DNA from: Candidatus Gallionella acididurans
GTDB lineage: Bacteria; Pseudomonadota; Gammaproteobacteria; Burkholderiales; Gallionellaceae
Length of the DNA stretch: 64,000 bases
NCBI GenBank assembly: GCA_001577345.1
Contig: LSLI01000009.1
Coordinates: 1 to 64,000 of the forward strand
Direction of reading: 5' to 3'
In this document: positions 3,077 through 16,705 of the stretch, piece by piece
Layout of the letters: every line of letters starts with the position of its first letter
Numbering within the stretch: the stretch's first letter is position 1
Translations under genes and position numbers: made by a program
Notes under the pieces: model-generated
Told to the model about the DNA's origin: nothing
What the model saw: only the letters and a program-made list of their open reading frames with translations
The model's database searches: none

Positions 3077-4474
3077 ATGAATATTATTTGCAGTACATTG
3101 CTCAAGGTTCTACGCTCATGGCCGGGGATATTGGCTGTAGCGTTATTTGGTTTGCAGGGATGCGCCACTTACAGTAGCTCTTTCAGGGCGGTTGACCGCG
3201 ACCTTGCGGCGCAGAATTACGATGCGGCTTTATCGGATAATGCAAAGGAATCCAAGTCCCCAAAGGATCGCGTGTTGTACCTCCTTAACAAGGGGATGAT
3301 ACTGCGCATGAAGCGCGATTTTAAGGATTCGAATTTGGCATTCGGGGCGGCCAAGACGGAAATGGATCGCCTGTATGCCGCAAGCGTCACTGAAAATGCG
3401 CTGTCTGTGATGGTTAATGACTCAATGGTCAGTTATTCGGGCGACAACTATGAGCGGATACTGTTGCATCTGTACATGGCACTCAATTACCTGGAGCTGG
3501 GCCAGCCTGATTCGGCACGGGTAGAGGCACTGCAGGTTGACGATGATCTGCGCGAGTTTGCCGAAAAACATCCGAACAGCAAATTTTCGGAGGATGCGTT
3601 TACGCTCTATCTGACCGGCATGATCTATGAGGACAGGGGTGAATGGAGCGATGCCATGATCTCATACCGGAGTGCGTATAACGCCTACATGAAGGACTTT
3701 GCCTATTATCGAGTGGCTTTGCCGTCCACGCTCAAGGACGACTTGATGCGGATGGCAAAGCGGGTGGGGTTGAGGAACGAGCTGCGCAAATATGAAGCCG
3801 AGTTCAATGTTGATCCCCTGGATAACAAAAGGGCGGACCCTGACCGGGGGGAATTGATATTCGTTCTGAATAACGGGCTTGCCCCTGTCAAGCATGAGAG
3901 GACTGCCGCTTTGGTCGATCCCAACAGCGGTATCATGGTCAGGATCTCCTTGCCTTATTATGAATCGCGGAATGACTATAATAACAATGTGGTGGCCGCT
4001 CGCATCACGGTCAGCGACAAGCAGTCGACCACTGAGCTGGTGGAAAATGTCGATGCTATCGCCAGAAAAAACCTGGAAGATCATATGCCCGCAATAATTG
4101 CGCGCTCGATAGCGCGGGCCGTGGTCAAGACCGAGGCAGTCAGGAGGGCACAGGCAGGGGCCATGAATGGCAATAACAACGGCAATAACAATGGAGCCAT
4201 GTTCGGCATGCTGGGGGCATTGGCTTTGCAGGTGGCGGCCGTGGCCTCCGAGCAGGCTGATACGCGCAGCTGGCTGACGCTGCCCTCCAATATCCAGCTG
4301 GCGCGCTTGTCTTTGCCTCCGGGCAGCTATAGTGTCAAAGTGGAATTATTGGGGGCCGATCAGATGGTTGTCGCTACACAAGATTTTCCCAATATTGCAA
4401 TCAGAAAGACCCATAAAACTTTCCTGACCCAACATTGGATACCTCAACAGATTACTACCGGGGAATTAAAATGA
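3077..4474 (+). CDS. COG3014-like TPR-type lipoprotein
   Basis: Lipobox LFGLQGCA; N-terminal helical repeats (LLHLYMALNYLELGQPDSARVEALQVDDDL); start chosen at ATG 3077. Confidence 0.65.
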   Translation: MNIICSTLLKVLRSWPGILAVALFGLQGCATYSSSFRAVDRDLAAQNYDAALSDNAKESKSPKDRVLYLLNKGMILRMKRDFKDSNLAFGAAKTEMDRLYAASVTENALSVMVNDSMVSYSGDNYERILLHLYMALNYLELGQPDSARVEALQVDDDLREFAEKHPNSKFSEDAFTLYLTGMIYEDRGEWSDAMISYRSAYNAYMKDFAYYRVALPSTLKDDLMRMAKRVGLRNELRKYEAEFNVDPLDNKRADPDRGELIFVLNNGLAPVKHERTAALVDPNSGIMVRISLPYYESRNDYNNNVVAARITVSDKQSTTELVENVDAIARKNLEDHMPAIIARSIARAVVKTEAVRRAQAGAMNGNNNGNNNGAMFGMLGALALQVAAVASEQADTRSWLTLPSNIQLARLSLPPGSYSVKVELLGADQMVVATQDFPNIAIRKTHKTFLTQHWIPQQITTGELK

Positions 4475-5684: not shown

Positions 5685-6053
5685 GGGGACGACTTGGCTT
5701 CGACGTGGGTTACAAAGCAGCGTAGGGCATACCGAGGACCCGCCACCTCGTAAATCAGCTGGAAAAAACTAGTCGCAAACGACGAAAAGTACGCTTTAGC
5801 AGCTTAGTCTGCTAGACCTCACACCCTGCTGTCTGTGGAGGGGCTCAAAGCCGCAAGGCTGAGATGAGTGAGGTAATTTACACAGAATCGTGCCGGTCAG
5901 GGTCACTTTGATCGGAGCTAGAAACAAGGTGACTCGTCCTTTACCAGCCCGCCGGTTGGCGTGTACGGGATCAAATTAAATAACATGGCTAAGTATGTAG
6001 AACTATCTGTAGAGGACTTGCGGACGCGGGTTCAATTCCCGCCGTCTCCACCA
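5685..6053 (+). ncRNA. ssrA: tmRNA (transfer-messenger RNA)
   Basis: GGGGACG 5' end pairs with 3' CGTCTCC-A-CCA; tag frame at 5775-5807 gcaaacgacgaaaagtacgctttagcagcttag = ANDEKYALAA*; TTCAATTC T-arm. Confidence 0.97.
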
Positions 6054-6088
6054 ACACCAAGGTGACCAGAAACCACTGGAAACCAACA

Positions 6089-6125
6089 CAGCTAAGCCAT
6101 TTGACCGGCTTGGCTGTTTCTTTTT
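6089..6125 (+). terminator. Terminator downstream of tmRNA
   Basis: cagctaagcc-atttgacc-ggcttggctg stem followed by tttcttttt. Confidence 0.6.
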
Positions 6126-6589
6126 CAAGCGTCGAAATTGTCCAGAATGGGCTGATTCCAGCTTAGTCTGGTCACGGATGGTTTCAGCTAACCACATGTC
6201 CCCGTCCCCTTGTCTTGCTATCGTAAAGCGCAGTCCGCGACAGACACAGAGCGGATAGCCTCATCACAAACTTGCGTCATTCAGGGCAATATTTTGATTG
6301 TGCCGAAACGAACGATACAGGTTTTTTTTGCCCCGGAATTCGCCGCATTGACATTGCTTGCGGTGCGGAGTACTTTGAATCCAGCAGGAACATTGGTTTA
6401 AAGTAATGGGATTCAATTCCCCTCTTTTTAAACCCCCGATCACCGAATGATGTTCTTGCTACATACTTCTCTATGCATTCATTAGATGCTAGTCGCCACC
6501 TGTTTTTAGTGCCGCTGTTATTTTTCCGTCTGGGCAATTTCAGCAGTTGTCTTAAGGTGACCAAGAGCTAATTACAAAGGAGAGTGAAA

Positions 6590-6721
6590 ATGTCAACTTT
6601 AGAACATGGAAAACCTGAAGATGATCCAAATTTAGCAACGCGTGAACTTGTATATGTGGCTTTTTTATTCATTACCGGGACGGTGTTTGCAATTCTGCTT
6701 TTGACAGGGTCGCTATTTTAA
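6590..6721 (+). CDS. Small single-TM protein (43 aa), below the ORF-track cutoff
   Basis: MSTLEHGKPEDDPNLATRELVYVAFLFITGTVFAILLLTGSLF; AAAGGAGAG ribosome-binding-site-like sequence upstream. Confidence 0.5.
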   Translation: MSTLEHGKPEDDPNLATRELVYVAFLFITGTVFAILLLTGSLF

Positions 6722-6741
6722 CGAGTGGTGATGCGTTTGGT

Positions 6742-6779
6742 TATCGGATGGGATAAAACGGCTATTTGGTCCTCGACAG
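6742..6779. repeat. Distal att repeat
   Basis: tatcggatgggataaaacggctatttggt + cctcgacag; first 29 bp identical to 15295-15323. Confidence 0.9.
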
Positions 6780-7067
6780 AGTACGAACAGCAGCCCGCAA
6801 GCCGCTATTCATAAGGGCGTGGCTTGTTTGGTTTTAGCTTTTACCAACACTTTTACCAACAAACTGCGCCGCCTATCGTATGTTGGCATCCTGTTTCAGG
6901 TCAGGTTGTGAACTCTCATAAATCCACGCCGCACAGTTTTCCGCGTAGTTTTGTCTCTTCCTGTGTGGCGTAAGATTTGCCAGCACGCAGCCTTTAATCG
7001 TTCCCTTCAGCTTTAGTAGTGTTCTTATGCCGCCTTTTGAACGCACGTAAATAATTTTGCATTTAAT

Positions 7068-8450
7068 CTATTTAAGTGGTTTGAATGGTTTTATATTACC
7101 CAAGCAAATATTCATCATTTGATCTTGTAACGCATGTCCACCAGCATAAAAAAATCCGGAATCAAGATATACTTGGTTTATTGCATTTTTTATAACTTTA
7201 TCAGAAAAAGTTTTTCCATATACACCTGCTAACAATCTGAATGCTTGTTCTGGCGAGAAGTAATCATCCCTAAATTTTGCTGAATTCTCATAAACACTTC
7301 CCAGATTTGAGCAATAACATAATTTGTTTTTCTTGCAACTTTCGACCTCGGCGTCTTTTGCTCCACTTGCTATAACTTCACCCACCATACTCTTAATTTT
7401 TTGCGCCACTTGACTGACATCGCAGTTGTCGCAATGGGAGATACGGCCAGCGACAATGCCCTTATGTGGGGTGTTGTTTGAACTGTTGAGAATGAATAGA
7501 CTCAGGGAGTATCCTTTTGTGATTTCTACTCTGGCATAAAAATTTGAATGAAGGGATTTCGCTATAGCTCGCGCGACTTTGGTGTCGTCTTGCTTGGCTT
7601 TGAACATTTTTAATAATTTCTCCCGTGAATTTTCTTCAATCTGCACCCCGGATAAAACTTCATACTTTTTGCTTAGCTCTTCTACTAAGGCAGCGTTTAA
7701 TGCTGATTCCAAGCTCTGGTCATTTTCATCAAGTAGCAACGGCATTAAAACAATACGATCTTTATTTATACTGCCCGCTGGTTCTCCTTTACCATTTGAT
7801 ACTATGGTTTCCGAAATATCGGAAGCCGCTGACAAAAGTACTCTCAGATTGACTTGGGCTTTTTCAAGCCCCTGTTTAGCCGCCTTGCGATACCAGTCTA
7901 CGGCTTGTGCATAGTCTTTTGGAACTCCTAGACCATATTCATACATCCGGCCCAAATTGTTTTGAGCCATTGCATTTCCTTGCTCAGCCGACTTGCGATA
8001 CCACTCTACGGCTTGCGCATAGTCTTGCGGAACGCCTTGACCCTTGTAATACATGAAGCCCAAATAATATTGAGCATCTGCATTTTCCTGCTCGGCTGCC
8101 TTGCGAAACAACTCTGCGGCTTTTGCGTAGTCTTGCGGAACGCCTAGACCATTGACATACATTAGGCCTAGGTTTCTTTGAGCACCTGCATGTCCCTGTT
8201 CAGCCGCCTTGCTGAACCATTCAATAGCTTTTGTATAGTCTTTTGGAAGCCCTTGACCGTTAGCATACATTACACCTAGTAATTTTTGTGCATCCGCACT
8301 ACCATGCTGCGCCAATGGCATGGCTTCTTGCAAAGCTTTAGCATAATCGCCTTTATCATAGGCCGCCTTTGCGTCTTCCACTCCTGCATATCCTGCTATA
8401 GCGAAAAACAGGCCAAGCATTGCAGCAAGGGCTACAAGTTTCACTTTCAT
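7068..8450 (-). CDS. Exported Sel1-repeat (SLR) protein with unknown C-terminal domain
   Basis: Signal peptide MKVKLVALAAMLGLFFAIAGYAG; four 36-aa Sel1 repeats (AQ..LG.MY..G.GVP.DYA.A..W..KAAEQG). Confidence 0.8.
   Translation of the reverse strand: MKVKLVALAAMLGLFFAIAGYAGVEDAKAAYDKGDYAKALQEAMPLAQHGSADAQKLLGVMYANGQGLPKDYTKAIEWFSKAAEQGHAGAQRNLGLMYVNGLGVPQDYAKAAELFRKAAEQENADAQYYLGFMYYKGQGVPQDYAQAVEWYRKSAEQGNAMAQNNLGRMYEYGLGVPKDYAQAVDWYRKAAKQGLEKAQVNLRVLLSAASDISETIVSNGKGEPAGSINKDRIVLMPLLLDENDQSLESALNAALVEELSKKYEVLSGVQIEENSREKLLKMFKAKQDDTKVARAIAKSLHSNFYARVEITKGYSLSLFILNSSNNTPHKGIVAGRISHCDNCDVSQVAQKIKSMVGEVIASGAKDAEVESCKKNKLCYCSNLGSVYENSAKFRDDYFSPEQAFRLLAGVYGKTFSDKVIKNAINQVYLDSGFFYAGGHALQDQMMNICLGNIKPFKPLK
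7860..8291 (-). repeat. Four tandem Sel1 repeats (36 codons each) within the CDS
   Basis: AQKLLGVMYANGQGLPKDYTKAIEWFSKAAEQGHAG / AQRNLGLMYVNGLGVPQDY... / AQYYLGFMYYKGQGVPQDY... / AQNNLGRMYEYGLGVPKDY... Confidence 0.8.
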
Positions 8451-8567
8451 AAAAACCTCACTGTAAATTCTAATGTGTCATAGTATTGCCGATTGCACGG
8501 ACTAGCAACAATGTTGCCGCGTTAATAATTCTCCCGCTTATATTTCAGTGCCCGATTCTCACCAGCG

Positions 8568-9077
8568 CTATAACTGAAAAACGCTTTCCCCATTCCACAT
8601 TTTCAAATAATCCAGGTAAAGCCATTCCGTTAAATCTGCATCAGGATCAATGTCTGGCCTATACCCATCCAGTAAGTCATCAAGTTCAAGGTGAAAAGCT
8701 GCCAAAACTTTTGGGGAATCCAAGCCGATTTCATGGCAAAACCTTGCCCATCCTTCACCATACGCTAAAAACTCGGCATGTCGCAATTGGTAGAGCGCGG
8801 CATTCTCTTTATTGCTTGACCCAATCGCAATAAGCGCACGCATCGTGAACATGCACCCACGCGCTTGAAAGAATCGCGCAGCGTGAACATAAGCAATGGT
8901 TTGCAACATCAGCATGCGGTCAGTGAAAGCTGTATCGGCCATTCTGTAGTTTGAGTGTGGGCAGGTCGTCGCAAGGGTTTTCGCCTCTTCAGTGTCACCC
9001 CTCGCCCGTGCCTCAATGAATAGAGCTATGCGCTCAGGTGCGGTCAGGCTTGCGTATTGCTTCGTTAAATCTATCAC
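8568..9077 (-). CDS. Hypothetical protein of the integrative element
   Basis: 169-aa ORF, ATG overlaps stop of 9074-9364. Confidence 0.65.
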   Translation of the reverse strand: MIDLTKQYASLTAPERIALFIEARARGDTEEAKTLATTCPHSNYRMADTAFTDRMLMLQTIAYVHAARFFQARGCMFTMRALIAIGSSNKENAALYQLRHAEFLAYGEGWARFCHEIGLDSPKVLAAFHLELDDLLDGYRPDIDPDADLTEWLYLDYLKMWNGESVFQL

Positions 9078-9364
9078 GGGGATTTTTTCCTTGCGTTGAG
9101 TGTTCTTTCGAGGGCTTCAGTGCGGGCTTCCAGCACTCCGGTTTCGTATGACTTGCGGATCATGTCCAGCACATAGGCCAGTTTCGTGCCATCCGCCGGA
9201 TCAATGCGGCGCGCCCGCATATCCCGATAAACCGCCCCCAACTCGCGCCGGATAGCGTCCGCATCATGCAGGTTGATTTTGGAGGGTGGGGGTGCAAGCT
9301 GGTTTCCATGCTGGTCATAGGTTGCGCCCTGTTGGTTTTCTGCCGGATCGTTGTCAGTGGACAT
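9074..9364 (-). CDS. Hypothetical small charged protein of the integrative element
   Basis: MSTDNDPAENQQGATYDQHGNQLAPPPSKINLHDADAIRRELGAVYRDMRARRIDPADGTKLAYVLDMIRK...; tight spacing with neighbours. Confidence 0.6.
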   Translation of the reverse strand: MSTDNDPAENQQGATYDQHGNQLAPPPSKINLHDADAIRRELGAVYRDMRARRIDPADGTKLAYVLDMIRKSYETGVLEARTEALERTLNARKKSP

Positions 9365-9764
9365 TTTTCGCCCCATGCCGCTCGATCAGCTCAAGCAGTT
9401 GCCACGCATCGCATCCGGCTTTCGATACCAGCATTTCGCACGTTGCGCCTGTTGGGTGTCGCACTGCCACGGTCACTATGATGTTGGCCGGATCACTTGC
9501 ATCGTCAACGTAAATTGCCCGTTGCGTGCCGGGCGTAGCCTCCAGCATGGCAATGACTTTTTGCCGCCGCGCTTCCCGCTGCCTGTCCTGTAGCGTTTCC
9601 GGTTTGGCTATTGCCGTTGTGGTTTTTTCAGAGGTATCATGGGTATCAAAGGTGCAAGCCTGTATTGGTGCGGGCTTCGCTGATACCTCGCCACGGTTGC
9701 ACGGGGTATCTGGGGTATCAGCCGCACGCCGTTCCATTGTTGCCAGCAGATTATCAAGCCCCAT
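9354..9764 (-). CDS. Hypothetical protein of the integrative element
   Basis: 136-aa ORF overlapping the 3' end of the primase gene and the 5' end of the next ORF. Confidence 0.55.
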   Translation of the reverse strand: MGLDNLLATMERRAADTPDTPCNRGEVSAKPAPIQACTFDTHDTSEKTTTAIAKPETLQDRQREARRQKVIAMLEATPGTQRAIYVDDASDPANIIVTVAVRHPTGATCEMLVSKAGCDAWQLLELIERHGAKNVH

Positions 9765-12603
9765 GATCGCCCCCCAGCTTGTCAGCTTGCACGGGGTAGA
9801 GTTTCACGCCGCGCCCGCCGATGCGATAGAACTTAGCCCGCTTGCCGTCCGCCCCCGGTATCGGCAATGCGCCTGCTTCCTGCAAGGCATCAAGCGCCCT
9901 GTTGAAATCAAAGCCCGTCAGTGCTTCGCGCAAGCCTTCCGCCGTGAACAGGTATGCCCGGCCTTCATGGGCATCACGCCACCAGCCAGCCCGATTGACG
10001 CGCATGGTGTCCGATGTTTCGCTGGTGTCGGCATTGGAAAACCGACTATCGCCATGCCGTTCAATGAAGCCTGAAACACGATCAAGTATTTGCCGCCGTT
10101 CATCGTTGCCGCGCCCGCGTGTAGATTGCCAAGCCTTGAAGCCTACCGCCGCCGCTTCGATTGCCGCACCTTCCGGCCAGCCGGTTATGCCGTACTCAGT
10201 CGCCACCTCACCAGCCAGCGCCAGCATGGCGAAACGCCCGGCGGCGCGCTTGGATTGCCCCTCTGCATCATCTGCAGATAGCACCGGAAATGACTTGAAC
10301 CGTTCCAAGTATTCGCAAAAGTCGCGTTTGTCTCGTGTTAGTTTTTCGAGGAATGCGCGCCCGGCGTGTCCGTGGTGCGTTACTGCCGCCCGCTTGATCG
10401 CATCAGAAAATGCCGTACCACTTTGCAAGCCGTGCAGGTTATCCCAAGCCCCGAATTTTCGCGCCGCTGGAATATCCAGCAGCCGCACGGACTGCCCGGC
10501 TTTCGCCTTTGCGCCACCTTCCATCATGGCCGTGGCAATAGTGCGTTCACCACTTGATAAAACGAAACAGCGCCAGCGTGTAACGCCTCGCGCATTGCCC
10601 GTGCGGCTTGCCCGTTGCTTGCCCCGTCCGTTGCCCAGCGCATAAATGATCGCGCCGACTTCGCGGGGATCGCATTCGCTGATTTCGTCAAGTGCCAGTA
10701 AGCCATCATTGAACAGGCTTGCCGCGCCTTCCATGCCGTTTGAAGTTGCGCGCCAGCTTCGGCGGTAGTTTGCCCCGCCCCATGTAGAACATGCGGCTTC
10801 GATAGCAGTAGTCTTCCCGGTGGAACTGTCGCCCACGTAATGAATGCCACCGCTTTCGCCGTTGCACCGCGCCAGCATCGCGCCTGTGAATGAAGCCGCC
10901 AGCGCCAGCGTCAGCAGTGGATTGCCAACAGCCCGCGCCGATATTTCGGACTGCCACCCGGCCAGCGTTCCGGCCTTGGTAAACTCATCATGCCCGCGTT
11001 CGCCGGATTGAAATATCACGCCCGAAGCCGCCGCGCCGATAACGGTATCAGGTAGCACAAATGAATCACCGCACCAGCCAACTTGCAGTGCGCAATGAAT
11101 GCGCCGTTTCGGTGGTTTGGCTTGCAGATATTGAGCCAACAGATTGCGCCCGGCGTGCGGGTCAATCTCTACACCCATCGCCAGCAATTCGCCGCGCAAT
11201 TCATCGCCCGCGCCGCGTAGCAATTCCATCGGCATAGCCCATTCGCGCCACTTGCCAAGGGTGGTTTTGAATCGCAGCATTCGCCCAAAATTATTATCTT
11301 GCCCGTCAGAGGTCACGGCCTCAACATGCACAGGGGAGCATATCCATTGCTGAATCAGCGAGGGTGGAGCTTCGCCTTTGCCGTGCTTGATCGTAAAAAA
11401 CCATACACCCGGTTTCAGCTTGCCGCCGTCAGGCAGCGGTTGCCAGTCGTCAAACACTTTGAAGCATGGCCGCTTGCTTTCGTCGGGGATTATCGGCTCA
11501 GGCGATACCCCTGACACCTCGGCAGTATCGGCAGGGGGATCAGCGGAAAGCCCGTCGTTATTGGCTTGCACCTCTGACACCTCTGATACCCCGTTTTCCG
11601 GCATGACGTCATCGGCTTCTTGTTTTCGTGTTTCCGTGTCACTCAGCGCGGCAGCATCACCCGTAGCAGCGTTTTCAGCTTCGGGTGGTGTGAAGGTATT
11701 GCCCGATTCTAGCGTCGCGCCTATGGTGTTCCTCACAGCTTCCAGCCCTTGCAATGCCGCCATGTCGTTAAAGTCGGTTGCTTTGTCCGGTCGGTTCGCG
11801 CCAAAGTCGGGGATTGCCAGCAGTCCGCCCACGAATCGCGCCGCTTCGGTTGCCTTTGTCAGTCCAGGATTGCCATCCGTTTTGTAATCGTCATCGGCGC
11901 AGAGAATCAGCGGCAGGTCGGGGAATTTATCGCGCATTGCTTTTGCCACCGCCGGCAGATTCCCGGCATTGAAGGCCACCGCCACCGGGTAGCCTGTGGC
12001 TTCATGGATAGATGCGCCTGTTGCGAATCCCTCAGCGATGCACAGCGCCGCCGCGCCCTTCGTGATGCCGATGCTGAAATAGCAGCCTGACACTCGCCCG
12101 CCACTTAAAAACTTCTTGCCACCATCAGCGTCGATGAATTGCAGGGAGTGCAGCACGCCATCGGCACGCATTGGGATCACTAGCGCCCCATTGTGCAACC
12201 TTGCGCCAGCCGGATTGATGCCCTTGCGGGTCAAATAAGAATGATTGTCGGGGGCGGGTTGCGCCGCATTCCATATGGAGGTCGCTTGTGCTTGCGCTTC
12301 GGCTTGCTTGGCCTTGCGATCTGCTTCAGCTTGCGCCTTCGCCTCAGCAACCTGGCGCATGAATGCTTCGCGCTCGGCTGGCGTATATGGACTATCTCGT
12401 TTTTCCTGCCAGTCGGCGGATAGTCCTGTTGAGTAGTCCCCGAATATCCCACCGATTCCATCAGGAAACAACTTGCACCATGCAGCCGTGTTGCGGCTTC
12501 CCTTGCCTTCGCCGGGGAACTTGTGGAACTTGCCCGGTTCGATCACGTTAGGCGGTTGCAGGCCAGCGGCTCGAATTGCATCTAGAAAGGTTGGCGCATT
12601 CAT
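9754..12603 (-). CDS. Toprim / DUF927-type primase-helicase
   Basis: Toprim-like LCIAEGFATGASIHEATGYPVAVAFNAGNL...LILCADDD; Walker A VGDSSTGKTTAIEAAC in DUF927 context; ATG at 12603. Confidence 0.85.
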   Translation of the reverse strand: MNAPTFLDAIRAAGLQPPNVIEPGKFHKFPGEGKGSRNTAAWCKLFPDGIGGIFGDYSTGLSADWQEKRDSPYTPAEREAFMRQVAEAKAQAEADRKAKQAEAQAQATSIWNAAQPAPDNHSYLTRKGINPAGARLHNGALVIPMRADGVLHSLQFIDADGGKKFLSGGRVSGCYFSIGITKGAAALCIAEGFATGASIHEATGYPVAVAFNAGNLPAVAKAMRDKFPDLPLILCADDDYKTDGNPGLTKATEAARFVGGLLAIPDFGANRPDKATDFNDMAALQGLEAVRNTIGATLESGNTFTPPEAENAATGDAAALSDTETRKQEADDVMPENGVSEVSEVQANNDGLSADPPADTAEVSGVSPEPIIPDESKRPCFKVFDDWQPLPDGGKLKPGVWFFTIKHGKGEAPPSLIQQWICSPVHVEAVTSDGQDNNFGRMLRFKTTLGKWREWAMPMELLRGAGDELRGELLAMGVEIDPHAGRNLLAQYLQAKPPKRRIHCALQVGWCGDSFVLPDTVIGAAASGVIFQSGERGHDEFTKAGTLAGWQSEISARAVGNPLLTLALAASFTGAMLARCNGESGGIHYVGDSSTGKTTAIEAACSTWGGANYRRSWRATSNGMEGAASLFNDGLLALDEISECDPREVGAIIYALGNGRGKQRASRTGNARGVTRWRCFVLSSGERTIATAMMEGGAKAKAGQSVRLLDIPAARKFGAWDNLHGLQSGTAFSDAIKRAAVTHHGHAGRAFLEKLTRDKRDFCEYLERFKSFPVLSADDAEGQSKRAAGRFAMLALAGEVATEYGITGWPEGAAIEAAAVGFKAWQSTRGRGNDERRQILDRVSGFIERHGDSRFSNADTSETSDTMRVNRAGWWRDAHEGRAYLFTAEGLREALTGFDFNRALDALQEAGALPIPGADGKRAKFYRIGGRGVKLYPVQADKLGGDHGA

Positions 12604-12827
12604 ACCCGGCCTCCGATCATGCGGAATAATGAAAGGGCAATGCAGCACCCGGCCTGTCGCCATAGATGCCCAGCATCAGCGTGATCTTGACGAGCAAGCT
12701 CCAAGCTGTAGGCAGTTCGCCAAAGCGCAATTGAGAGCTTGTTGAAGCTGCCGGATTGTTTATAATGGGTGCGTGGTGTTGGGGGCGTACCGTTCGAGGG
12801 TGCGCCCTTGTTGTTTGTGGTGTCCAT
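12600..12827 (-). CDS. Hypothetical small protein between AlpA and primase
   Basis: 75-aa ORF, 4-bp overlap with the primase start. Confidence 0.45.
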   Translation of the reverse strand: MDTTNNKGAPSNGTPPTPRTHYKQSGSFNKLSIALWRTAYSLELARQDHADAGHLWRQAGCCIALSLFRMIGGRV

Positions 12828-12836
12828 GATCGCGCC

Positions 12837-13052
12837 TCACTTTCCGGCCTGCGATGCAGCGATGCGCTCAGCCGCCCACACCTCTACATCCGCCGCGTTC
12901 CATGCGGTGCAGTTTTCGGATAGCTTGATAGGCTTCGGGAATTTGCCAGCCTTGACCCAGGCCCAAATGCTTGAGCCGGAAACGCCAAGGCGTTGCTTGA
13001 GGTGGGGGAGTCGGTAGAATTGTTGCGGTGTAGGTTGTGTTGCGTTCGCCAT
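12837..13052 (-). CDS. AlpA-family transcriptional regulator
   Basis: YRLPHLKQRLGVSGSSIWAWVKAGKFPKPIKLSENCTAWNAADVEVWAAERIA is a classic AlpA/MerR-like HTH. Confidence 0.9.
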   Translation of the reverse strand: MANATQPTPQQFYRLPHLKQRLGVSGSSIWAWVKAGKFPKPIKLSENCTAWNAADVEVWAAERIAASQAGK

Positions 13053-13175
13053 GATATACATCTCCGTAGAGTTTTAACGCGTCTAGCCTCATGCATTGCG
13101 CGTCATTGGCGAACTATCAAGCAGAAAACTAAAACTTTTTATCTGTTTAATTACCCTCTGTTTCTTAAGATATGC

Positions 13176-13916
13176 CTAGACTTTGGGGAGCAGGATCGCA
13201 GCCCAAGTACTTGCAGCGGGTCCCGCTGCTGGGCTACCTGCGGTATTGGCGGCAGTTGAACTAGTGAGCGAGTCCGGCGCGATCAGTTTTGCTTTTTTCT
13301 TTGGCGTAGGCGTGTATCTGACTATGGTTGCTTTCAGCCTCTTCGCCACCCAACGTTGAAACTCTATTATTCCTTCCGGAGTCTCCAGCTTTTTACCCGC
13401 TGCTCTCACTCTTGATTCTATTTTTTTTGCTCCCCCGCCTAGTGCGCCTGCAACAGCCGCATACAGTCCCCCGGCTTCGGTGTGCCTCTTTTCGTGCAGG
13501 TGTTTATAGGTTTCATCAAAATTGACCAGCCAGTGGGCTTCCCACATGAGGTCTGGTTTTGATTTGTTGCCTAGCGGTTTCGGCCAAGGACTTTTCCCCT
13601 CAAGGAATCTCTTTATTCCATTGGTCACATATTCAATCGTTTCGTCATTAATTGGTGCGTCCGGCATGATAGGTCTGCGTCTTTCTGCCCATGCCACAAA
13701 TTCGTATAGGTGAAGAAATGGGCCGTGAAAGTTTATCTGCCCCTCTGTTGTCTCCAGCTTTTTACCCGCTGTTCTCACCCTTGGTTCTACTTTTTCTAAT
13801 TCTTCGCGTAGCTGGAGAACGGCCATGTGATTTGCTATGCGTTTCGCTGTTTCAATATCGCCGGGCGTGATCGAGTCAGTGCGCTTGCCCATCTTCTTCA
13901 CTATGCGCTTGGTCAT
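13176..13916 (-). CDS. Hypothetical protein with internal duplicated segment
   Basis: 246-aa ORF just downstream of integrase; EPRVRTAGKKLETTEGQI and ESRVRAAGKKLETPEGII. Confidence 0.6.
   Translation of the reverse strand: MTKRIVKKMGKRTDSITPGDIETAKRIANHMAVLQLREELEKVEPRVRTAGKKLETTEGQINFHGPFLHLYEFVAWAERRRPIMPDAPINDETIEYVTNGIKRFLEGKSPWPKPLGNKSKPDLMWEAHWLVNFDETYKHLHEKRHTEAGGLYAAVAGALGGGAKKIESRVRAAGKKLETPEGIIEFQRWVAKRLKATIVRYTPTPKKKAKLIAPDSLTSSTAANTAGSPAAGPAASTWAAILLPKV
13381..13420. repeat. 40-bp direct repeat, copy 1
   Basis: gtctccagctttttacccgctgctctcactcttgattcta; 37/40 identical to 13751-13790. Confidence 0.85.
13751..13790. repeat. 40-bp direct repeat, copy 2
   Basis: gtctccagctttttacccgctgttctcacccttggttcta. 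Confidence 0.85.
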
Positions 13917-13917
13917 T

Positions 13918-15141
13918 TCAAGCGGCCTTAATTTGCAGTGGTATCACTTCTGCGCCTGCCTTTAGCTTGTCCAGATAGTCCGCCCATTGCTGCATCATGG
14001 CGCGCCGTTCATCCAGATACTCGGCAAAGTTATAGGCCGCTCGGCTTGCGTTTTTTTCAACGTGGGCAAGTTGCACCTCGATTGCGTCCCGATGAATACC
14101 CCACTTGGTTTTGTGTTCGTTCAATGCGGTGGATGCCGCCGAGCGGAAGCCGTGTCCGGTCATCTTGCCTGTGTACCCCATGCGCCCCAGCGCGCGCAGA
14201 ATCACCGCCTTGCTTGCTGGTTTGGTCGGGTCGTTACGGTTCGGGAAAACGTGCTGCCTGTCGCCGGATAGTTTTGCGGCTTCCCTGAATGCGGCCACCG
14301 CCTGAGCGGATAGCGGTACAAGATGGGGGCGGCGCATCTTCATGCGTTCGGCGGGTATCAGCCATTCGGCACGATCAAGGTCAAGCTCCTGCCATTCCGC
14401 CTCTATCAGTTCGCTGGTGCGGGTAAAGGTTAGTGCCATCAGTTGCAGGGCATAGGTAGTAAACGGGCTGCCTTGATACCCGTCAATATCGCGCAGCAAT
14501 TGCGGGAAGCCGCCTTTCTCTATCGTGGTGTAGTGCGTCCGCTTGGGTTTTTTAAGTGCGCCGCGCAGTTCGGTTGCAGGGTTGCTGTTGCATCGACTTG
14601 TAGCGATGCCATAGCGGAATACGGCACTGCTCCGTTGTAGTACGCGGCTGGCGATTTCCAATGCGCCACGCTTTTCAATGATGCGCATCGTTGCCAACAA
14701 TTCGGCAGGGGTTATCTCGGCAATCGGGCGGTGTCCCAACGATGGGAAGGCATCTTGTTCAAGGGTGCGCAATGTCAGGGCTTTGTGCCCCTCTGTCCAA
14801 TCGTTTGAACGATTCTCTATCCACTCCCGCGCTACTGCCTCAAAAGTGTTTGCCGCTGCAACCTTGGCTTGCCGTTTTTGGGTTTGCTTGACTGCGCTGG
14901 GATCAGTGCCGTTCGCTATCAGCTTGCGCGCCTCGTCGCGCCGTTCGCGGGCAAGGGCTAGGCCAACGTCTGGATATACACCAAGTGCAAGGGTCTTTTG
15001 CTTCCCAGCAAAACGGTAGGCCAGTTGCCAGTATTTGCCGCCGTTTGGATGGATCATCACATATAGCCCGCCACCGTCCGTTAGCTTGCGCGGCTTGGCT
15101 TCCGGCTTGGCTTTTCTGATAGCAACATCGTTTAGTTTCAT
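13918..15141 (-). CDS. Tyrosine-type site-specific integrase (DUF4102 N-terminal domain)
   Basis: MKLNDVAIRKAKPEAKPRKLTDGGGLYVMIHPNGGKYWQLAYRFAGKQKTLALGVYP...GHGFRSAASTALNE...QLAHVEKN; next to tRNA-Arg. Confidence 0.95.
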   Translation of the reverse strand: MKLNDVAIRKAKPEAKPRKLTDGGGLYVMIHPNGGKYWQLAYRFAGKQKTLALGVYPDVGLALARERRDEARKLIANGTDPSAVKQTQKRQAKVAAANTFEAVAREWIENRSNDWTEGHKALTLRTLEQDAFPSLGHRPIAEITPAELLATMRIIEKRGALEIASRVLQRSSAVFRYGIATSRCNSNPATELRGALKKPKRTHYTTIEKGGFPQLLRDIDGYQGSPFTTYALQLMALTFTRTSELIEAEWQELDLDRAEWLIPAERMKMRRPHLVPLSAQAVAAFREAAKLSGDRQHVFPNRNDPTKPASKAVILRALGRMGYTGKMTGHGFRSAASTALNEHKTKWGIHRDAIEVQLAHVEKNASRAAYNFAEYLDERRAMMQQWADYLDKLKAGAEVIPLQIKAA

Positions 15142-15294
15142 GGCCGCACCCCTTTTGTTGGTAAAAAATGGTGTTGGTAAATCGTTTACCAACAGATTTA
15201 ACAACAGCTGTTGGTAAATTGCAATAGACGGGGAAGTACGGCATTAAACAGAAAAGCCGCCAATCACTAGGATTTAAGCGGCTTTCGTGGGTGG

Positions 15295-15334
15295 TATCGG
15301 ATGGGATAAAACGGCTATTTGGTGTCCTCGACAG
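15295..15334. repeat. tRNA-proximal att repeat
   Basis: tatcggatgggataaaacggctatttggt + gtcctcgacag, overlapping the tRNA-Arg 3' end. Confidence 0.9.
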
Positions 15335-15394
15335 GAATCGAACCTGTAATTGACCCTTAGGAGGGGCCGGTTATATCCATTTAACTACGGGGAC
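15320..15394 (-). tRNA. tRNA-Arg (anticodon CCT)
   Basis: Reverse complement gtccccgtagttaaatggatataaccggcccctCCTaagggtcaattacaggttcgattcctgtcgaggacacca folds as a cloverleaf. Confidence 0.93.
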
Positions 15395-15463
15395 AGGGTG
15401 CGCTTTGAAAGCCGTGCGCATTCTAGCTCAAACATCCATAAATTGCCGATTCGATATTGTGGC

Positions 15464-16705
15464 TCACGGTGTAAAACGTTTGGCTATCAGCACTGCATTG
15501 CTTCCGCCGAATGCGAACGAATTTGACATCACCGCGTCGAGTTTAATGCCTGTCCGACTCTGGTTGGGAACGTAGTCCAAATCACATTCAGGATCGGGTT
15601 CATGCAGATTGATGGTTGGGGGAACGGAGTTGTGATGCAGTGCCAGCAAGGCGGCCATGAATTCCACCGCACCAGTGGCCCCCATCAAATGACCATGCAT
15701 TGATTTTGTTGAGCTGATTGGAATATTCGCGGCATGCGAGCCAAATACCTTTTTGACAGCTTTGGTTTCTTCGATATCTCCTGCAAGCGTGGCGGTGCCG
15801 TGGGCATTGATGTAATCGATGTCACCGGGTTGCAGCTTTGCATCGTGCAAGGCGTTCAGGATTGCGCGGGCTTGTCCTGAGGCATCCGGCTTGGTGATGT
15901 GGCTGGAATCTGATGAACAATCATAACCCGCCAGTTCCGCATATATCTTCGCGCCACGTTTGACGGCACGCTCTGCATCTTCCAGTACCAGTATCGCAGC
16001 CCCTTCGCCCAGCACCAGTCCGCTGCGATTTTTGGCGAAAGGCTTGCACGATGCCCCGGCATCGTTTGGATCTTCCTTGGCAAGGGTATGCAGCGCTTCC
16101 CAGGCTTTCATCGCTCCCAGCGTGAGCATGGCTTCTGAGCCGCCAGCCAGCATCACATCAGCATAGCCGTGTTTGATCCGGCGGTATGCTTCTCCGATGG
16201 CAATCGCCGATGAAGAGCAGGCGGTAGCATAAGTTATATTGGGACCCTGCAGGTGGTACTTGATAGAAATATGAGAAGCGGCTGCGTTGTTCATGCTTAA
16301 CAACACTGTGAGCGGTTTGACGCGCGGTTCCTTGCGCTGGAGCACCTCGATATAGCCTTCTTCCAGTGTACTGGAACCACCCTGGCATGAGCCCATGCAG
16401 ACTCCCGCGCGCCCTTGCTCTGGCTCGCTTAATTCCAGCCGTGCATCCCGCACGGCTTGATCAGCGGCTATCAGGGCGAACTGGCTGAAGCGTTCGATGC
16501 CGGTTAGCTGTATTTTGCTGAAGTGGTCGCCGGGGTTAAAGTCTTCCACCGGTGCAGCGATACGAATGGAGAGCTTTTCGATGAAATCGGATTGCAGATG
16601 CTTGATGCCGGAATGTCCGGCCATCAGATTGCCGAAAAATTCTTCGGGGGACTTTCCTACCGGAGAGATAATACCCAAGCCGGTAATGACAACGCGCCTG
16701 GCCAT
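15464..16705 (-). CDS. Beta-ketoacyl-ACP synthase II-like (FabF family)
   Basis: RRVVITGLGIISPVG...ITYATACSSSAIAIGEAYRRIKHG...INAHGTATLAGD...SSTKSMHGHLMGATGAVE...SNSFAFGGSNAVLI. Confidence 0.93.
   Translation of the reverse strand: MARRVVITGLGIISPVGKSPEEFFGNLMAGHSGIKHLQSDFIEKLSIRIAAPVEDFNPGDHFSKIQLTGIERFSQFALIAADQAVRDARLELSEPEQGRAGVCMGSCQGGSSTLEEGYIEVLQRKEPRVKPLTVLLSMNNAAASHISIKYHLQGPNITYATACSSSAIAIGEAYRRIKHGYADVMLAGGSEAMLTLGAMKAWEALHTLAKEDPNDAGASCKPFAKNRSGLVLGEGAAILVLEDAERAVKRGAKIYAELAGYDCSSDSSHITKPDASGQARAILNALHDAKLQPGDIDYINAHGTATLAGDIEETKAVKKVFGSHAANIPISSTKSMHGHLMGATGAVEFMAALLALHHNSVPPTINLHEPDPECDLDYVPNQSRTGIKLDAVMSNSFAFGGSNAVLIAKRFTP

Follow-up and report, generated by a model that had tools for sequence, protein, structure and literature searches.

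Borders, target gene and surroundings of the island

The window analysed here is the whole stretch of 64,000 nucleotides (64 kb) from Candidatus Gallionella acididurans, in which a 29-bp exact direct repeat occurs at 6742-6770 and again at 15295-15323 in identical copies. No other exact direct repeat in the window is as long: the next two measure 22 and 18 bp, and 20 Markov-2 simulations yielded none above 17. With up to three mismatches allowed, the 3.43-Mb assembly held the repeat at the two island ends only. The extension CCTCGACAG follows it at both ends and is preceded by GT at the right copy, not at the left, so that the repeat blocks are 6742-6779 and 15295-15334, as the first-pass annotation had stated together with the exact repeat itself. 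Its reading that the right copy overlaps the 3′ end of tRNA-Arg was borne out by ARAGORN, which placed tRNA-Arg(CCT) at 15394-15320 on the minus strand; the right repeat thus spans the tRNA 3′ end and 25 bp past it. As in an island targeting a tRNA gene, a direct repeat with the tRNA 3′ end is present at both borders, and the unit from repeat to repeat is 8,553 bp (8.55 kb). Its features, in order of position, are:

6742..6779, plus strand: distal att site (attR), 25 bp of flank, TGGT and CCTCGACAG
6842..6861, plus strand: two TACCAACA octamers (6842-6849 and 6854-6861), putative distal arm
7068..8450, minus strand: Sel1-repeat protein of 460 aa (Sel1, 9.5e-52), G+C 42%
8568..9077, minus strand: o169, orphan ORF in the slot where relatives have a terminase small subunit (TerS)
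9074..9376, minus strand: o100, orphan ORF with distant copies in L126 and L112
9354..9764, minus strand: o136, which comes after the primase in most relatives
9754..12663, minus strand: Toprim-DUF927 primase-helicase, PF13362 (Toprim_3) and PF06048 (DUF927, 5e-101)
12600..12827, minus strand: o75, small ORF that follows alpA and precedes the primase gene, with conserved counterparts in some relatives (64% in L148)
12837..13061, minus strand: AlpA-type regulator/excisionase (PF05930, 1.8e-10)
13176..13916, minus strand: o246, no family, beginning 1 nt past the int stop, where a PICMI has its gene iolg/icg
13918..15204, minus strand: P4-type tyrosine integrase, PF13356 (Arm-DNA-bind_3), PF22022 (Phage_int_M) and PF00589 (Phage_integrase)
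15156..15216, no single strand: four TACCAACA octamers (15156 minus, 15172 minus, 15187 plus, 15209 minus), putative proximal arm
15249..15289, minus strand: hairpin with T-rich tail directly 3′ of the tRNA, weak (z -2.0)
15295..15334, plus strand: proximal att site (attL), 25 bp and the tRNA-Arg CCA end with the 3′ strand of acceptor and T-stem, intact
15320..15394, minus strand: tRNA-Arg(CCT), the target gene (ARAGORN), found as a single copy in the assembly

In tRNA orientation the intact gene reads CTGTCGAGGACACCAAATAGCC. The displaced fragment at the distal end reads CTGTCGAGGACCAAATAGCC and is 2 nt short at the acceptor end. Displaced fragments elsewhere had an acceptor-stem deletion of 1 nt (L118) or none (L105, L127 and L138). 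The 25 bp past the tRNA are identical at both ends of the island, more than restoration of the gene needs. A similar motif lies past the tRNA in the elements that relatives carry at tRNA-Arg(CCT) and is lacking in unoccupied relatives, so the distal 25-bp copy may be the footprint of an earlier related element. When the left flank (6054-6741) was examined for remains of such an element, only about 120 bp beside the tmRNA matched relatives.

The only Rfam matches between 6000 and 16500 were the tRNA, the tmRNA and one sub-threshold match. The tmRNA and about 120 bp past it (5685-6175) are 98% identical to one related genome (G022), and the tmRNA end is the integration site of other P4-type integrases in relatives. 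On the other side (15395-16705) tRNA-Arg adjoins a FabF-like gene, and in 14 relatives with this fabF no tRNA was present in the fetched flanks. A tRNA-Arg between tmRNA and fabF was found in none of the relatives examined, which therefore gave no empty site for comparison at the window's own junction. In relatives tRNA-Arg(CCT) adjoins MFS, peroxiredoxin and uup genes. The native locus, ordered antiporter, tRNA, MFS, peroxiredoxin and uup, holds in the host (contig C13, L159, about 3708-3730) only a 23-nt relic of the tRNA 5′ end (20/23) and the promoter, and the sole intact tRNA-Arg(CCT) found in the assembly is the copy in the window. Misassembly is a very improbable source of the repeat pair or of the junction between tRNA-Arg and fabF, although the assembly is a draft of 316 contigs, the tRNA has different neighbours in relatives (uup/MFS) and host (fabF) and the contigs of several relatives break at tRNA-Arg(CCT), because the 5′ relic on C13 fits biological loss better than a chimera and the island is complete with matching octamers at both ends.

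The composition of the island is foreign, with a delta* of 103 against 21-44 in right-flank windows of the same size. Among 60 related genomes the primase reached at most 53% identity, and the 8.5-kb block is not common to the relatives. At tRNA-Arg(CCT) the integrase of one of them (G016) is 86% identical and is accompanied by different cargo, including two short ORFs that resemble a BrnT/BrnA pair by eye; that of another (G033) is broken; and in others the sequence 3′ of the tRNA is unrelated. Rather than being fixed, the block thus varies and is absent from some relatives, as tRNA-targeting islands are; the syntenic and fixed 8.5 kb that the first-pass annotation had named as speaking against an element was not what the relatives showed.

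Genes of the island and putative integrase sites

All recognisable genes between the repeats are on the minus strand, and the family matches agree with the order previously read from the letters (integrase, ORF, AlpA, ORF, Toprim/DUF927, three ORFs and Sel1). The integrase contains the motifs RTSE and HGFR and, by eye, a tyrosine at the usual C-terminal place; an integrase with Arm-DNA-bind_3 and catalytic motifs thus adjoins the tRNA. The primase has the Walker A motif GDSSTGKT, and its true start is probably about 12603, giving an overlap of a few nucleotides with o75. The primase gene overlaps o136 by 11 nt and o100 overlaps o169 by 4 nt, and because of these overlaps and the single nucleotide between int and o246, alpA through o169 looks like one operon. 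Within o246 an internal repeat was noticed (13357-13442 against 13726-13811, 22 bp exact, 86 bp at 76%). The Sel1 protein has a signal-peptide-like N-terminus (by eye), and its gene, with 42% G+C, looks like later cargo. NCBIfam matches of this protein (MerG, MotX and others) were discarded, their scores lying far under the curated thresholds.

Pfam, PHROG and NCBIfam gave no match to a capsid, terminase or relaxase family in the island, which upholds the earlier statement that such genes are not recognisable there. Psu, Sid and other P4 capsid-size or late genes, by which a P4-like satellite is recognised, were likewise not found with Pfam and PHROG. In 369 genomes of the class the single match to o169 outside the window was weak and covered 56 residues, and viral contigs scanned with o169 and o100 gave none. 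AlphaFold single-sequence folds of o169 (pLDDT 46) and o246 (pLDDT 49) were unusable for structure search. A defence system is not claimed, PADLOC having given only weak matches to PtuA and mad1.

The octamer TACCAACA occurs eight times in the window, where 0.93 are expected, and six of the eight are no more than about 140 bp from one or other core. Clusters of it were also found beside int in L075 and L148, which hold the closest relatives of the integrase. The six are probably arm-type sites of the integrase, and their layout is what would be expected of attP arm sites for its N-terminal domain. The hairpin and T-rich tail 3′ of the tRNA, weak as they are (z -2.0), are probably a tRNA-Arg terminator, which the element may thus supply; the sequence that relatives have at that place is comparable without being the same.

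Relatives of the primase and likeness to known satellites

Relatives of the Toprim-DUF927 primase were found at 56 loci, 53 in genomes and three on viral contigs, many at tRNA or tmRNA genes. They commonly lie downstream of int and AlpA, so the int-AlpA-DUF927 set that the first-pass annotation had proposed to look for does recur in other genomes. The related elements for which repeats were found measure 5.4 to 14 kb. In L108, L110, L111, L138 and L143 (Pfam, above cut-off) and in L126 (PHROG) the primase module is directly followed by TerS. At nine loci (L145, L113, L116, L125, L136, L106, L103, L107 and L152) the TerS position after the primase module is taken by a QVNNG-type protein (about 220-240 aa, ARQANIxxGPQQVNNG), two members of which were scanned and had no Pfam or PHROG match. 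The L138 element (9.4 kb) lies at tRNA-Met and has both repeats. That of Pseudomonas guineae (L143:6509-16486; 28-bp repeat, 9.95 kb) ends before etfA and reads int-DUF6387-AlpA-ORF-Toprim-DUF927-ORF-ORF-TerS-CsrA-Sel1, with no large terminase and no capsid among its recognised genes. At about 10 kb it shares with the island the succession int, ORF, AlpA, ORF, Toprim, DUF927, ORFs and Sel1, and differs from it in TerS (PF03592), CsrA, a two-gene primase and a repeat that lies in a terminator-like hairpin. A related 12.2-kb element (L131:6987-19304) was seen between two complete copies of tRNA-Arg(CCG), as an 86-bp repeat. Plasmid pTAO100 of Candidatus Nitrosoglobus terrae (L161, 6.4 kb) carries Toprim and DUF927 genes (40.8% identical) and repM, and no integrase is among its annotated genes.

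A close parallel in gene order is the Pseudomonas satellite phiAH14b (KU708005; PMC4936722), which likewise has a P4-type int (42% identical), an ORF, AlpA, Toprim and DUF927 in the same order, with 37% identity in DUF927 and 41% in Toprim, and likewise lacks a terminase and a full structural set; an 18-bp att repeat was found in a relative. It was reported to be induced with its helper and was found in virions of the helper's capsid protein (PMC4936722). Whereas phiAH14b measures 16.8 kb, has Toprim and DUF927 as two genes, carries a histidine kinase as cargo and has phiAH14a as helper, the island of 8.55 kb has one fused primase gene and Sel1 cargo, and no helper was found for it.

In the Vibrio PICMI the order is int-iolg-alpA-up1-prim-up2, and in PICMI115 excision depends on the int-overlapping gene and replication on the primase (PMC10803314). 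The island is similarly small and has int, a gene that all but touches it (o246), alpA, a small ORF, the primase and accessory genes, without capsid or TerS; it departs from the PICMI in having Toprim-DUF927 instead of a DUF3987/DUF5906 primase and tRNA-Arg(CCT) instead of a fis site. With Gram-negative PICIs such as EcCICFT073 (PMC6092414) it shares the order int, alpA, primase in one direction and the absence of lysis and full structural genes, and it differs from the EcCICFT073 type in its site and in having neither a capsid gene nor a demonstrated helper. A packaging gene, frequent and not obligatory in this class, was not recognised in the island, and TerS is present in at least six primase relatives. 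Since it takes cultures to establish phage-dependent induction and packaging, we call the element satellite-like and do not file it as a PICI. Also small, with int, AlpA-like regulators, Toprim and DUF927, are pHS87b and vB_Pae_U10 of the P2/P4 type, which differ by ogr and a P2-family capsid gene.

Satellite reading, alternatives and proposed life cycle

Gene order as in Gram-negative PICIs, PICMI and phiAH14b and the TerS genes of sister elements led us to read the island as satellite-type. The P4-type integrase that the 8,553-bp island encodes is likely to insert it at the 3′ end of tRNA-Arg(CCT), and the most likely way in which the island spreads is as a phage satellite. What the sequence itself shows is the two att sites, an integrase of full length that has its motifs, the octamers inside the two ends, the absence from relatives and the gene order. 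Counting against this reading are that no packaging gene is recognisable, that no helper was found, that the 25 bp past the tRNA are identical at both ends, and that P4-type integrases and AlpA also occur on islands that are not satellites. For the first two reasons we infer transfer, helper and packaging. The co-resident helper phage that had been suggested as a check was not found: HK97-type capsid, TerL_ATPase and P2-type capsid families are absent from the host assembly, and since these three, which do not cover all phages, are missing, no resident helper can be named.

The first-pass annotation had left the choice between a satellite-type and a mobilisable element. The satellite part gained from gene order and sister TerS genes, and the conjugative part gained no support. 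As an integrative mobilisable element of the iOriT type the island would have int, replication genes and a short oriT and would use the relaxase of another element; for relaxase-free islands an oriT can suffice for mobilisation (review PMC11389934), and plasmids commonly encode DUF927 proteins (matches in 4,614 plasmid records). We regard this as improbable, given that the island has no relaxase, the T4SS coupling protein is represented in the host genome by a 21-bit fragment match only, a relaxase gene was present in 0/4 annotated relatives inspected and sister elements carry TerS, a packaging gene.

Doubtful as well is the view that the island is what decay has left of a satellite or P4-type prophage, no longer mobile, with int and primase retained, packaging lost and the Sel1 gene as domesticated cargo. 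The lack of a recognisable packaging gene, the orphans in the slot after o136, the failure to find a helper in the host and the deletion in the distal att fragment would suit such decay, but all ORFs are open, the integrase and Walker A motifs are present, starts in the replication operon are coupled and octamers lie at both ends. Packaging is moreover known for satellites that have no packaging gene, namely PICMI (PMC10803314) and EcCICFT073, which is without terS (PMC10111431).

For the island as a satellite the following cycle is proposed. A helper phage would switch on alpA; AlpA and Int, perhaps with o246, would excise the circle, which the Toprim-DUF927 protein would replicate; and the helper would package it by means of a signal in its DNA or of a protein encoded in the o136-o100-o169 slot, with the Sel1 protein as cargo. 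Integration would restore the tRNA 3′ end and leave the displaced fragment with its 2-nt deletion.

Most of the phage satellites described so far come from Enterobacterales, Pasteurellaceae, Vibrio and Gram-positive cocci. The 56 loci with related primases, several of them with TerS, suggest that satellites occur in groups from which few have been reported, and their environmental hosts include Nitrosospira, Nitrosomonas, Thiobacillus and Dechloromonas. A wider proposal, which we advance tentatively and consider possible rather than probable, is that Toprim-DUF927 elements form an undescribed, mostly betaproteobacterial satellite lineage in which the position after the primase is an exchangeable packaging slot (for TerS, a QVNNG-type protein or orphans, among them o100-o169), and that the island, with the sole intact tRNA-Arg(CCT) and a damaged fragment, is addiction-like.

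In one set of elements, acceptor-stem deletions of the attR tRNA fragment were found in PICIs and not in prophages, and Tommasini et al. suggest that such deletions penalise excision (PMC10111431). The 2-nt acceptor-end deletion of the window fits this PICI-type "damage" (PMC10111431), and the new detail is its combination with the 23-nt relic at the native locus, from which it follows that excision might damage the sole tRNA-Arg(CCT) copy found. Should the crossover fall on the anticodon side of this deletion, excision would replace A73 by C and strip the tRNA of the encoded CCA, and the empty site would read GAGGACCAAAT instead of GAGGACACCAAAT; should it fall within the 29-bp block, tRNA-Arg(CCT) would stay intact. 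The damaged fragment and the sole intact copy found make the proposed 'PICI addiction' idea directly testable.
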